The notes under the pieces were generated by a model, which saw only the letters and a list, made by a program, of their open reading frames with translations, searched no databases and was not told the origin of the DNA. This document shows positions 16,210 through 21,059 of a stretch of 43,596 nt of DNA, piece by piece. This DNA comes from Candidatus Methylomirabilota bacterium (lineage in GTDB: Bacteria > Methylomirabilota > Methylomirabilia > Rokubacteriales > CSP1-6). The first letter of the stretch is position 1. Each line of letters opens with the position of its first letter. Made by a program: the position numbers and the translations under genes. Where the stretch lies: contig DASYVT010000129.1 in assembly GCA_035936835.1 (NCBI GenBank), positions 1 to 43,596 of the forward strand, read 5' to 3'.

Positions 16210-17403
16210 TCAGATGACGGCGTCGCGCCGCAGGCGCTCGATTTCGGCCGGCGCGTAGCCCGCTTCAGCGAGGATCTCGTCCGTGTGCTCGCCGAGGGTC
16301 GGCGGCTCCCGGTCGATGCCCGGGCTGCCGTGCGCGAGCCTGAAGCCCGCGCCCACGAGTCGCATCGGTCCATAGCGCGAGTCGACCGTCTGCAGCACGT
16401 CGCGGTGCTTGAGCTGCGGGTGCTCGACGATCTCGTCGATCTTCCAGACGCAGGCGCACGGAACGTCGGCCGCGGTGAGCCGCGCCTCCCAGCTCTTGGG
16501 ATCGTCCGTCGCCAGCGCGCCTTCGATGACTTCGCGGAGCGCCGCCACGTTGTCGGTCCGCGCCTGCCAGTCCTTGAACCGCGGGTCGTCGAGCGCGTCG
16601 GCGCGCCCGATCGTGCGCATGAGTCTCACGAACTGCTTTTCCGTCAGCACGGAGAGGACGATGTACCCATCCCGCGCCCGGAAGCGGCCGGCCGTCGGCT
16701 TGCGGCTGACTGAGTCGTTGCCGATCTGCCGCTGCTCGATGCCGGCCACGGTGTACTCGGACACGGGGCCGGGGATGAAGGCGAGCGCGGCGTCGAGCAT
16801 CGCGACGTCCACGAACTGCCCCAGCCCGGTGTGGGTGCGCTGGTAGAGCGCGCTTGCCACCGCCAGCGCCGCGGTGATGCCGCCGATCGTGTCGCAGATC
16901 GCGAAGCCGGCGCGCATCGGGCCGCCCGCGGGCTCGCCGGTGATCGACATGATCCCGGACATCGCCTGCAGCTTGCCGTCGAAGGCGGCCGTCGTCCGCT
17001 CCGGTCCCGTGTGGCCGAAGCCCGAGACCGCGCAGTAGATCAACCGCGAGTTTATCGCAGACAGCGCCTCGTAGCCGACCCCGAGCTTGTCCATCACACC
17101 GGGCCGGAAGTTCTCCCACACGACGTCGGCCGTGGCGACGAGCCGCTTGACCACCTCGACCGCCTCCGGCCGCCTGAGGTCGAGCGTGATGCTGCGCTTG
17201 TTGCCGTTCACCGCCAGGAAGCCCGGCGGCATCTTGCGGTCCGCCCACTCCTTGCTGATCAGCTGGCTGCGCGTCTCGTCACCGTCGCGCGACTCGATCT
17301 TCAGGACGTCGGCGCCGAGGAGCGCCAGCTGGTAGGTGCCGTACGGGCCCGCGAGGTACCGGGTGAAGTCGAGGATCCGGACGCCGGCGAACGGCTTGCT
17401 CAT
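16210..17403 (-). CDS. CaiB/BaiF (class III) CoA transferase
   Basis: 397 residues, the usual length. Family blocks are GVRILDFTRYLAGPYGT, LGADVLKIE, NGNKRSITLDL, ENFRPGVMDKLGVGY and VSGFGHTGP. The catalytic Asp is at 171 (FAICDTIGG). These enzymes move CoA between carboxylic acids through an Asp-anhydride. The ATG overlaps the stop of the GrdB-like selenoprotein gene (ATGA at 17400-17403), so the two are probably translated together. The acid it activates is unknown. Confidence 0.93.
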   Translation of the reverse strand: MSKPFAGVRILDFTRYLAGPYGTYQLALLGADVLKIESRDGDETRSQLISKEWADRKMPPGFLAVNGNKRSITLDLRRPEAVEVVKRLVATADVVWENFRPGVMDKLGVGYEALSAINSRLIYCAVSGFGHTGPERTTAAFDGKLQAMSGIMSITGEPAGGPMRAGFAICDTIGGITAALAVASALYQRTHTGLGQFVDVAMLDAALAFIPGPVSEYTVAGIEQRQIGNDSVSRKPTAGRFRARDGYIVLSVLTEKQFVRLMRTIGRADALDDPRFKDWQARTDNVAALREVIEGALATDDPKSWEARLTAADVPCACVWKIDEIVEHPQLKHRDVLQTVDSRYGPMRLVGAGFRLAHGSPGIDREPPTLGEHTDEILAEAGYAPAEIERLRRDAVI

Positions 17404-18323
17404 ACGCCGTCTTTTTCGCGCTTAGCTTTCGCCACGGATTTCACGACGTCGAACTCCTTGCGCCGCTCGGCGATCTCCTCCGGCGTCAGCTTGGCGAGGT
17501 CGTAGAAGTCGAGCTTCCAGGACGCGTCGTCACGCCATCTCTGCGGCGACTGCGCCGTGGTCCGGCCCGCGGGTGCTCCCTCCAGCACGCGCAGCGCCAG
17601 CTCCAGCGTGGCCGACTGCGACTCGACGTCGAACGGGCGTCCGGCGGAGTTCCCGAGCGGGAAATCGCTGAAGAGGAAGCGCGGGACCCCACAACGCTCC
17701 ACGATGTCCTTGGCGCATCCCATGATGACGGTCGGGAGGCCGTTGGCCTCGAGATGCCTGGACACCAGACTCACGGTCTGGTGACACACGGGTCAGCTCG
17801 GGACGAGCACGGCCACGTCCGCGCCGTCTTCCCTGCACCGCCGGAGGAGCTCCGGCGCGTCCGTTTCCATCGTCACCCGGTGGCTCCGGTTCGTCGGCGC
17901 GCCGTAAAACCGCGGCGTCAGCGTGCCGATCCGTCCCGCCTTCACGGCCTCATGCAGGCGCGCCAGCGGAAACCAGGTGTTCGGATCCTCGGCCGTGGTG
18001 TGCTTACGGTCGTACCCGACGTGCGAGATGCGCAGTTCGGGCACCGTCTCCGAGGTATCAGAGTAGACCTTGTAGAACTTGGCGGCGGCGTTGTACTTCG
18101 CTCCCGGCCCCTGGTCGCCGAGCCCTGGCTGGTACGGCGCGGCCGTCGTGATCAGGGCCACGCGCGCCTTCGCCAGAGACATGGTGAGCGGCGTGAAGGG
18201 CACGTCGTCGAAGTGCGCCCAGCGATACGCGCCGTAGCCGAGCGCCAGGTAGTAGTCGCGCGTGCGCTGGATGTACTGGATCGGCACGTCGTGCTCAGCG
18301 GCGAATACCTTCGGATCTCCCAT
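17400..18323 (-). CDS. Glycine/sarcosine/betaine reductase selenoprotein B-family protein with in-frame UGA (Sec177)
   Basis: Read through the TGA at 17793-17795, the frame gives one 307-residue protein; conventional calling splits it in two. Upstream of the UGA are QYIQRTRDYYLALGYGAYR, WAHFDDVPFTPL, VALITTAAPYQPG and FPLARLHEAVKAGRIG. Downstream are PVCHQTVSLVSRHLEANGLP and RFLFSDFPLGNSAG. Both sides fit the GrdB/PrdB family. The UGA falls at residue 177, making a U-P-V-C redox motif where relatives carry U or C. A SECIS-like hairpin follows at the right distance. The start at 18323 (MGDPKVFAAEHDVP) follows the PPOX gene by 8 bases; its ribosome binding site is weak. A nonsense mutation is the alternative. 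The substrate is unknown; the fused reading is an inference. Confidence 0.8.
17763..17783 (-). promoter_or_regulatory. Bacterial SECIS-like hairpin after the in-frame UGA
   Basis: In the mRNA, nine bases after the UGA, CACCAGAC (17783-17776) pairs perfectly with GUCUGGUG (17770-17763) around a CGUGA loop (17775-17771). The loop begins 18 bases after the UGA and has G as its second base. This fits the known bacterial SECIS consensus: a loop about 16-37 bases downstream, with a G among the first two loop bases. It would recruit SelB with Sec-tRNA. Confidence 0.75.
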
Positions 18324-18331
18324 ATGGGGCA

Positions 18332-18715
18332 CTATAACTGGATTTCGAGCCAGGCGCGGTGGTTGATGCGGCCGGTCAGGCGTGAGAGCAGGTTGGTCAG
18401 GCGCATCTGCCAGCCGTACTTTGCCTGAAGCGCCGCGTAGGCGCGCTCGATCGAGCGGGGCTCCGTCAGGATGCGCGCGGTGGCCTCCCGCCACTCGCCA
18501 CGAACCCGACCGCGCGCATCCGAAGGCGCGACCCGCGCCCGCTGGGAATGCCGCAGCCGCTTGACCTTGCCCGATTGCTCGGCGGTGAACACGTAGAGCC
18601 TGCCGTCGGCCGCGGCGAACCAGACAGGCGTCGCGACCTCGGCGCCGTTAAGGCGGTATGTGGCCAAGCTTATGTAGCGGGCCCGATCGAGTTCGGCGAC
18701 GCCGGCTGCTACCAT
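18332..18715 (-). CDS. PPOX-class (F420-dependent-type) oxidoreductase
   Basis: 127 residues, split beta-barrel. The pattern LDRARYISLATYRLNGAEVA, TPVWFAAADGRLYVFTAEQSG, KVKRLRHSQRARVAP and RGRVRGEW is characteristic of the small F420- or flavin-binding PPOX proteins. The ATG at 18715 gives the normal N-terminus. It is the first gene of a three-gene run, 8 bases ahead of the selenoprotein gene. It may deliver electrons to that protein, but this is only suggested by position. Confidence 0.85.
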   Translation of the reverse strand: MVAAGVAELDRARYISLATYRLNGAEVATPVWFAAADGRLYVFTAEQSGKVKRLRHSQRARVAPSDARGRVRGEWREATARILTEPRSIERAYAALQAKYGWQMRLTNLLSRLTGRINHRAWLEIQL

Positions 18716-18786: not shown

Positions 18787-19641
18787 ATGATCGAGGTTCG
18801 CCGCCTGGGGCCACAAATCGGCGCCGAGGTCCAGGGAATCGACGTCAAGACGCTCGACGACGGGGGCTTCGCCGTGATCTATCGGGCGTGGCTCGATAGC
18901 AACGTCCTCGTGGTTCGGGACCAGGACCTCCAGATCGAAGACTTCCTGCGCTACAGCCGCCGCTTCGGGCTCGTCCAGCCGCACCCGTCGAAGGCGACCC
19001 GCCACCCCACCTATCCCGAGATCACCCTGCTGGGCGTCAACAAGTTCGGGCCGGACGGCGCGCTCGACATGGCCATCTATCGACGCGGCGCCGAAGGATG
19101 GCACACCGACGGCGCGTACGATCAGGAGCCGTTCAAGGCGACCCAGCTCTATGCCCTCGCCGTTCCCAGCACCGGCGGCGACACGCACTTCGCCAGCATG
19201 TACGCGGCGTACGATGCGCTGCCGCAGGCGCTCCAGCGGCGTCTTGACGGCGTTCTGGGGGCCTTCACCTATGGCGGCCGCCGGAAGGCGACGGCGTTGC
19301 TGAACAAAGAGGACCGCGACTGGACGCCCGTCTTCCATCCGATCATCCGCACTCATCCCGAGACCGGGCGGAAGGGGCTCTACTTCGATCCCGGCAAGAT
19401 CCTGCGCATCGAGGGTCTCGACGAGCGCGAGAGCGACGAGATGATCGAGGAGCTGACCGGCCGCATGATCCAACCCGACGCCGAGTACCGCCACAAATGG
19501 CGCAAGGGCGACATCGTCATCTGGGACAACCGCTGCTCGTACCACAGGGCGGCGGGCGACTACCCGCCCGAGGAAGACCGCATCCATTGGCGCGTCTCGA
19601 TCAAGGAGCACGCCGCCGCGGGCAGGGTCGCCGCCAAGTAG
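18787..19641 (+). CDS. TauD/TfdA-family 2-oxoglutarate-dependent dioxygenase
   Basis: 284 residues, typical length. The Fe(II) triad is His106-x-Asp108 (GWHTDGAY) and His253 (SYHRAAGDY). Arg269 (IHWRVSI) is placed for 2-oxoglutarate. The family N-terminus GPQIGAEVQGIDV supports the ATG at 18787; further upstream the frame is non-coding. A -10-like TATTCT ends 7 bases before the ATG and no clear ribosome binding site is seen, so the transcript may be leaderless. The next gene starts 1 base after the stop. The likely role is oxidative opening of a C-O, C-S or C-N bond in a small acid; the substrate is not identifiable. Confidence 0.9.
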   Translation: MIEVRRLGPQIGAEVQGIDVKTLDDGGFAVIYRAWLDSNVLVVRDQDLQIEDFLRYSRRFGLVQPHPSKATRHPTYPEITLLGVNKFGPDGALDMAIYRRGAEGWHTDGAYDQEPFKATQLYALAVPSTGGDTHFASMYAAYDALPQALQRRLDGVLGAFTYGGRRKATALLNKEDRDWTPVFHPIIRTHPETGRKGLYFDPGKILRIEGLDERESDEMIEELTGRMIQPDAEYRHKWRKGDIVIWDNRCSYHRAAGDYPPEEDRIHWRVSIKEHAAAGRVAAK

Positions 19642-19642
19642 C

Positions 19643-20656
19643 ATGCGCACGATCGACATTCACGCTCATGTCGTCCCCCAGTCGCTGTGGCGCGCCGCCG
19701 ACGCCGGCGCTGCGTGGTACGGCTATCGGCACGAGCCGGGCGAGGGCATCGGCACCGTCGTGGGCAACGGCAAGCGCACCGGCTTCACCTCGCCCAAGGT
19801 GCGCTTCACGGCGGAAGAGCGGATGGAAGACATGGACGCGCAGGGCGTCGACGTCCAGGTCATCTCGATCCACACGCCGTTCTTCGGCTACCACCTCGAC
19901 CCCGCGCAGGGCCGGCAGCTCGCGCGGGAGGTCAACGACGAGATCGCGGGCATGACGCGCCGGTGGCCCCGGCGCTTCGCCGGCCTCGCCACGCTGCCGG
20001 TGCAGGACGTCAAGGCGGCGATCAACGAGTTGGAGCGCGCGGTGACCGTCCTCGGCCTCAAGGGCGCCGAGCTCGACACGCAGGTAAACGGCCTACAGTG
20101 GGACGAGCCGAAGTTCCTGCCGTTCTTCAAGGCCGCCGAGGCGATGGGCGCCGTGCTCTTCTTCCACCCGCAGCCGCAGCATAACTTCCTCATGGAGAGG
20201 ACCCCGCGCGACGGCCTCTTCAACAGCCTCGGTGTCATCCTCGACGACGCGATCGTCGTCGCGATCCTGATCGCGGGCGGCGTCCTCGAAGCGTGTCCCA
20301 ATCTCCGCGTCTGCATCGCCCACGGCGGCGGCCCGGCGTGCTACGCGATGGGACGCCTCGACCGCGGCTGGCAGGGCCGCCCCGAGGCTCGCCGCATCCC
20401 CCAGCCGCCGAGCGCCTACCAGCGGCGCCTCTACTACGACTGCGTCACGGGCAGCGAGGCCGCGCTGCGCTTCCTGCTCGACCAGGTCGGCGCCGACCGG
20501 GTGGTGCTCGGCAGCGACTGGCCGTTCGTTCCGTGGCATCCTTCTCCCGTCGCCTGGGTCAAGGGGCTCGAGAGCCTGACCCAGGACGAGAAGGAGCGCA
20601 TCCTCTGGCGAAACCTCGAGGCCCTGCTGGGCATGCAGGAGGACTCTCATGGCTGA
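19643..20656 (+). CDS. Amidohydrolase-2 family metal-dependent hydrolase (ACMSD-like)
   Basis: 337 residues. Metal ligands are visible in order: His7-x-His9 (IDIHAHV), a barrel His (LFFHPQPQHN), the following His (CIAHGGGPACYAMGRLDRGW) and Asp in VLGSDWPFVPWHP. This is the pattern of ACMSD and related zinc decarboxylases/hydrolases. It lies between a dioxygenase and a cupin and overlaps the cupin by 8 bases, so the three genes probably form an operon for a small aromatic or carboxylic compound. Decarboxylation rather than hydrolysis is plausible from the subfamily. Confidence 0.9.
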   Translation: MRTIDIHAHVVPQSLWRAADAGAAWYGYRHEPGEGIGTVVGNGKRTGFTSPKVRFTAEERMEDMDAQGVDVQVISIHTPFFGYHLDPAQGRQLAREVNDEIAGMTRRWPRRFAGLATLPVQDVKAAINELERAVTVLGLKGAELDTQVNGLQWDEPKFLPFFKAAEAMGAVLFFHPQPQHNFLMERTPRDGLFNSLGVILDDAIVVAILIAGGVLEACPNLRVCIAHGGGPACYAMGRLDRGWQGRPEARRIPQPPSAYQRRLYYDCVTGSEAALRFLLDQVGADRVVLGSDWPFVPWHPSPVAWVKGLESLTQDEKERILWRNLEALLGMQEDSHG

Positions 20657-21059
20657 CATGAAGGTGATTCGTCTCGCCGACACCGAGATCGTCAAGTTCG
20701 GTCCGGACGCCGTCTACCAGCTCATCCTCGGCGACGATGCGGGCACGACGCCGATACGAACCGGTATTCAGACGTCCCAGCCCGGGTATGTCGCGCCGGT
20801 GCATTCGCACCCCTACATGGAAGTCCTGCACGTCCTCGACGGCTCCGCCGAGGCCTGGATGGATGGCCGGGAGGATGACAAGGTCCGGCTGGAAAAGGGC
20901 GACACCATCGCGCTGCCTCCGAACGTCCCGCACAGCTTCCGCGTCGTCGGCGATCAGGTGCTGAGGCTCCTGGGCACCCACGTGTCACCCAGGCGGATCG
21001 TGGAGTACAAGGACGGCCGTGCGACCGATGCAAGGGGCTACCAGACCCTCGACGGCTGA
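20649..21059 (+). CDS. Cupin domain protein
   Basis: 136 residues with both cupin motifs: PVHSHPYMEVLHVLDGSAE (motif 1, two His and a Glu) and DTIALPPNVPHSFRVVG (motif 2, His). All metal ligands for a mononuclear site are present. The ATG at 20649 has an AGGAGG-type ribosome binding site inside the amidohydrolase gene, whose last 8 bases it overlaps. It could be an enzyme (dioxygenase, isomerase) or a ligand sensor. Confidence 0.88.
   Translation: MADMKVIRLADTEIVKFGPDAVYQLILGDDAGTTPIRTGIQTSQPGYVAPVHSHPYMEVLHVLDGSAEAWMDGREDDKVRLEKGDTIALPPNVPHSFRVVGDQVLRLLGTHVSPRRIVEYKDGRATDARGYQTLDG

Follow-up and report, generated by a model that had tools for sequence, protein, structure and literature searches.

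The window analyzed here is the whole stretch of 43,596 nucleotides from contig DASYVT010000129.1 of a Candidatus Methylomirabilota bacterium. Its minus strand carries a gene of the PrdB/GrdB superfamily (17400..18323), which starts with an ATG at 18323 and stops with a TGA at 17402..17400. The sole interruption of its 307 codons is an in-frame TGA at 17795..17793, and the gene appears as two fragments in the standard list of open reading frames. When this TGA is translated as selenocysteine (Sec), the product matches both Pfam GRDB and PrdB, and the context of the motif reads ...LVPS-U177-P-V-C180-HQTVSL... The first-pass annotation had recognized one gene of 307 residues, with U177-P-V-C180, split by this codon. 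We find the same gene, and add that it lies on the minus strand, which had been left unstated. We also scanned the whole window for in-frame TGA codons flanked by coding-like sequence upstream and downstream, and this codon came second. The top-ranked one (37503) seems to lie between two neighboring genes that share a frame.

Two other genes flank the interrupted gene on the same strand. Downstream lies a class III (CaiB/FRC-type) CoA-transferase gene (16210..17403; PF02515, 378.6 bits vs 23.3), whose ATG shares four bases (ATGA) with the stop of the interrupted gene. Its best NCBIfam match reaches 275.8 bits for a cut-off of 750, too low to assign a substrate. Directly upstream lies a gene for an F420-dependent PPOX-class oxidoreductase (18332..18715; TIGR03666, 123 bits vs a cut-off of 84.9). 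The latter is present in a locus of the same genus (L148) and absent beside the other orthologues. Since it is kept just within the genus, it is probably not part of a unit with the other two genes. Further on, the plus strand has in a row genes that we named by eye as TauD/TfdA-like dioxygenase, amidohydrolase and cupin (18788-21059), a row that is also kept in the same-genus genome (G059, locus L148).

The Sec codon and the Sec machinery

The first-pass annotation had proposed that column 177 of the family should hold Sec or Cys. We collected 172 homologous loci, a few of which are one gene reached twice, and found at this column 97 TGA, 56 TGC, 19 TGT, and no other codon. Homologues were identified in 68 of the 95 genomes of the phylum search, and nearly all matches have exactly one internal TGA. 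The best named relatives are metagenome-assembled genomes (MAGs) of Candidatus Rokuibacteriota, so the host very probably belongs to this group. Orthologues were also retrieved from Pseudomonadota (about 61-69% identity), and the alphaproteobacterial ones that carry an NCBI family name are about 58-69% identical to the window protein. In an alignment of 51 proteins, the motif columns 177 and 180 are both invariant. So are seven residues located past the UGA (R189, E192, G195, R215, P222, G228, and Q236).

These data bear on the simplest alternative, namely that the TGA is either a nonsense mutation that splits a dead gene or an artifact of sequencing or assembly. A standard gene caller does produce two fragments at this place, as a pseudogene would. 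However, the same TGA recurs in about 20 orthologues that are 74-87% identical and come from independent assemblies, as well as in about 70 more distant homologues. The invariant residues also go on past the TGA, and the hairpin described below is kept by compensatory changes. Because the column is conserved as TGA or Cys and invariant residues lie beyond it, an error, a pseudogene, and a chance pair of reading frames can be ruled out, and we regard a dead or misread gene as exceedingly improbable.

The genome in which the gene is found, a 4.1-Mb draft that is 99.94% complete, has the components expected for Sec insertion. We identified a tRNA-Sec gene (71.3 bits), in agreement with ARAGORN (tRNA-SeC, anticodon tca), and matches to selA (497.8 bits), selB (373.5 bits), and selD (347.6 bits, C183:11015-11956). 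The genes selC, selA, and selB are grouped on one contig (C235). Hence, the four genes for which the first-pass annotation had advised a search are all present. The selD gene (within C183:10000-13000) contains one in-frame TGA, and for this reason SelD is probably a selenoprotein itself.

Another explanation for a codon that is evidently read through would be an altered genetic code, where UGA is a sense codon throughout the organism and does not specify Sec. Yet TGA is the ordinary stop of this very gene and of most of its orthologues, the alternative residue at column 177 is always Cys, and the full Sec machinery is present. We thus give an altered code a vanishingly small chance. Taken together, the sequence data indicate that the gene almost certainly encodes a selenoprotein. 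SelB and tRNA-Sec would insert Sec at the UGA of codon 177 under the direction of a hairpin that starts nine bases downstream.

We placed 58 close homologues in a tree, where Sec is found in the outgroup paralogues and in every Rokubacteria sequence, and the Pseudomonadota have Cys with the exception of one Gammaproteobacterial MAG (L136). The simplest reading of this tree is an ancestral Sec, which would have been lost to Cys later. The exception (L136:4389-5258) has the UGA form and the same hairpin core, and is nested among the Cys orthologues. A single Cys clade that leaves it outside is not rejected (p-AU 0.22), and L136 may represent a retained Sec, a rarer change from Cys to Sec, a transfer, or a mis-binning. 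SelA is present in both genomes with the UGA form outside Rokubacteria (L136 and L067), and absent from the two Bradyrhizobium genomes that were searched, whose copies have Cys. A genome of Belnapia (L090) encodes SelA despite its Cys copy.

The genome of the window encodes two additional PrdB-like genes with an in-frame TGA, C148:50355-51068 (35% identity) and C175:5-568 (50%), the latter being cut off by the contig edge. Each has the hairpin described below, and the stem of the one in C148 shows compensatory changes.

The hairpin downstream of the UGA

The putative Sec insertion element (SECIS) lies at 17763..17783 on the minus strand. An inverted-repeat search gave two arms of 8 bp with zero mismatches (17783..17776 and 17770..17763), separated from the UGA by nine bases, and the DNA reads CACCAGAC-CGTGA-GTCTGGTG. 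This is the perfect hairpin of the first-pass annotation, with its 8-base stem (CACCAGAC/GTCTGGTG), CGUGA loop, and spacing. In models of bacterial SECIS, the apical loop begins with G. The hairpin, which stands directly downstream of the UGA, conforms to this loop rule with its 8-bp stem and CGUGA loop.

Taken alone, the hairpin is mildly unusual and no more than suggestive. Its predicted RNA fold has an energy of -17 kcal/mol (z = -1.9). When the gene was recoded with the protein sequence fixed and the codon usage of the window, some hairpin of at least 8 bp (G-U allowed) arose in about 2.4% of the synonymous recodings, and in 0.8% it arose at the same place. A search of Rfam for SECIS and other RNAs gave zero matches, which does not count as an argument against a bacterial SECIS. 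Since the single-sequence statistic is weak, we relied on comparative evidence, and it is on this evidence that the hairpin exceeds what is expected by chance.

The comparison opposes the loci with Sec to those with Cys. At the fixed place just after the UGA, the helix extends from the loop over 5 or more uninterrupted base pairs in 97/97 Sec copies, whereas it is broken beside the loop (0 or 1 bp) in 71 of the 75 Cys copies. The remaining four, three from Hyphomicrobiales/Bradyrhizobium (L101, L108, L123) and one from Belnapia (L104), retain 4-8 contiguous pairs, which may be due either to chance or to the relic of a lost SECIS. The loss of the helix occurs mainly by synonymous codons. More precisely, the close group has 28 Sec copies, all with ACC-GTG-AGT at codons 183-185, a string that is found in 1/75 Cys copies. 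In most of the Cys copies this Val-Ser is encoded by GTC-AGC, such that the helix is lost and the protein unchanged.

The more distant Sec paralogues show changes that compensate each other on both sides of the stem, with ACC-AGT, ACC-GGT, TCC-GGA, or GCC-GGC at codons 183/185. Here the third base of the Gly at codon 185 tracks the first base of codon 183 (Thr, Ser, or Ala), a synonymous pattern that would be hard to explain otherwise than by pairing in a stem. For the quantitative analysis we used 42-base stretches from codon 177 on, of which 83 are distinct among Sec copies and 67 among Cys copies. The pair between codons 183 and 185 is formed in every one of the 83 distinct Sec copies. Across the stem, which has eight positions, 84% of the cells are paired, compared with 15-37% when the partners are slid by 1-3 bases, a control that retains kinship, and with no more than 75% when the columns are shuffled 1000 times, a contrast that kinship inflates. 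The covariation among Sec copies and the breakdown among Cys copies thus indicate that the SECIS of the window gene, as proposed by the first-pass annotation, is real. They also make for a clean natural comparison, in which an RNA helix is kept in the Sec copies of a gene and lost in its Cys orthologues.

Family, neighborhood, and possible function

The first-pass annotation described the two fragments as the halves of a GrdB-type protein. The superfamily stood: Pfam GRDB (PF07355) matches above its gathering score (34.9 bits vs a cut-off of 22), in the part upstream of the UGA. The type did not, as the protein is rather PrdB-like. The upstream half is matched by Pfam GRDB as well as by PrdB; for the downstream half, the NCBIfam model of PrdB gives the only match (40.5 bits). 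This model (TIGR04483) covers residues 43-260 across the UGA with 101 bits, and it gave 96 bits in the search of the genome, whereas its cut-off is 300. The models of GrdB/GrdF/GrdH all remain under their cut-offs with 40-45 bits (for TIGR01918, 42.1 bits vs 65.45). On these scores, the protein resembles PrdB more than GrdB, and it falls short of the cut-offs of both enzyme models.

The protein shares with PrdB the homology over 218 residues and the U-x-x-C motif, as given for PrdB (PMC9312934), but it is about 70 residues longer than the model. It shares with GrdB, GrdF, and GrdH the Pfam domain and a Sec at the homologous active-site region, but its match to the model of GrdB is confined to the C-terminal part. 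The motif of GrdB is UxxCxxC (PMC13188914), whereas the protein reads U177-P-V-C-H-Q-T183, with Thr in place of the third Cys. The partner subunits offer another point of comparison. We searched for PF09338, which we take to be the family of the pyruvoyl-bearing partners, PrdA included. It has zero matches in the near-complete genome of the window, which thus lacks a detectable pyruvoyl partner of the PrdA or GrdE kind, and it was not detected in 11 of the 23 genomes with an orthologue, this one included.

Could the protein nevertheless be GrdB or PrdB proper, the subunit that reduces the substrate in glycine, sarcosine, betaine, or D-proline reductase? The match to the superfamily and the U-x-x-C motif would fit, but the scores far from the cut-offs, the missing third Cys, and the genomes with no detected PF09338 make this very unlikely. 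Since PF09338 was not found in the genome, the protein is probably not part of a classical glycine or D-proline reductase of the pyruvoyl type, and an annotation as such a reductase is not supported. The protein may nonetheless act through its selenol in the manner of GrdB or PrdB. The joint claim that this is a genuine selenoprotein with a SECIS and no classical reductase is, in our assessment, very likely to be correct.

The predicted structure gave no functional hint. AlphaFold2 on 51 sequences, with Sec modeled as Cys, produced a confident model (mean pLDDT 92.7, pTM 0.91), in which Sec177 immediately precedes a helix (178-193). As Foldseek found no match in the PDB with E <= 0.001, and top TM-scores by query length below 0.3, the fold could not inform on function. 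A search of the family profile against the sequences of solved structures returned only chance matches to designed proteins. According to the model, the PrdB/GrdB fold may be one that lacks any structure in the PDB.

We retrieved the regions of 20 orthologues from Rokubacteria, one of which stops at a contig edge. In all 19 informative regions the CoA-transferase gene directly follows the selenoprotein gene, and in 18 of them the two overlap by four bases (NTGA). No other neighbor was seen to be conserved across Rokubacteria. The same gene order occurs in ten loci of Pseudomonadota (Belnapia, Craurococcus, other Acetobacteraceae, and Rhodospirillales), five of which have the ATGA overlap. The CoA-transferase gene is missing beside most of the Cys copies in Bradyrhizobium, where the neighbors look unrelated when the sequences are inspected by eye, and two Cys copies carried by plasmids have neighbors unlike each other.

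The maintenance of the overlap suggests that the two proteins act in one pathway or complex. The selenoprotein and the CoA-transferase would be made from a two-gene unit whose translation is presumably coupled, and U177-x-x-C180 would most likely act as a selenol/thiol redox pair. As the partner in the unit is a CoA-transferase, the substrate of the selenoprotein may be an organic acid or its CoA thioester, which would undergo redox chemistry or reductive cleavage; gene order and motif point this way, and we put the idea forward tentatively. A more specific scheme, which we consider unlikely, is a two-component system that first converts the acid into its activated CoA thioester, which the selenolate would then reduce or cleave at the carbon adjacent to the activated group, with no pyruvoyl cofactor.

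It is also possible, if rather doubtful, that the protein has a general role in thiol-disulfide exchange or in the handling of peroxides, and that its link with the CoA-transferase reflects shared regulation. This would affect only the functional part of our interpretation. Such a role would suit the U-x-x-C motif and the many Cys copies of Pseudomonadota that have no adjoining CoA-transferase gene. It is less easily reconciled with the 4-base overlap, nearly constant in the Rokubacteria regions and recurring in Acetobacteraceae, and with the predicted fold, for which we found no thioredoxin-like match among solved structures.

The first-pass annotation called this selenoprotein hidden. The gene is split in the list of open reading frames, but the family is not hidden: NCBI has a name for its Cys members, and a catalogue of 2008 already contains Sec ones (PMC2398784). 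PrdB-like UxxC selenoproteins of pfam07355 were among the commonest in that Global Ocean Sampling survey, whose "Proline reductase PrdB" family had 235 Sec and 110 Cys sequences (PMC2398784). By its description, this is the same kind of protein. However, the marine family comes from metagenome reads, whereas the window gene belongs to a nearly complete genome that encodes the Sec machinery, and it overlaps with a CoA-transferase gene. The alphaproteobacterial proteins that NCBI names "Glycine/sarcosine/betaine reductase selenoprotein B family protein" are orthologous, but they have Cys at the Sec column, do not maintain the SECIS helix, and mostly lack the CoA-transferase neighbor. In a limited search of the open-licence literature, the only paper on selenoproteins of Rokubacteria or Methylomirabilota was a review of 2026, which reports 63 predicted selenoproteins for one Methylomirabilota MAG (PMC13188914), and none was found on the Rokubacteria gene or its pairing with a CoA-transferase.

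Sec-containing PrdB-like proteins have thus been known since 2008, and the window gene adds a member to them. It provides a well-supported case of Sec use in uncultured Rokubacteria, in a gene that standard calling splits in two. The overlapping CoA-transferase gene narrows the search for what the many "selenoprotein B family" members of Rokubacteria and of some Alphaproteobacteria do. If the proposed system of a selenoprotein and a CoA-transferase is true, it would represent a new selenoenzyme reaction in soil bacteria.
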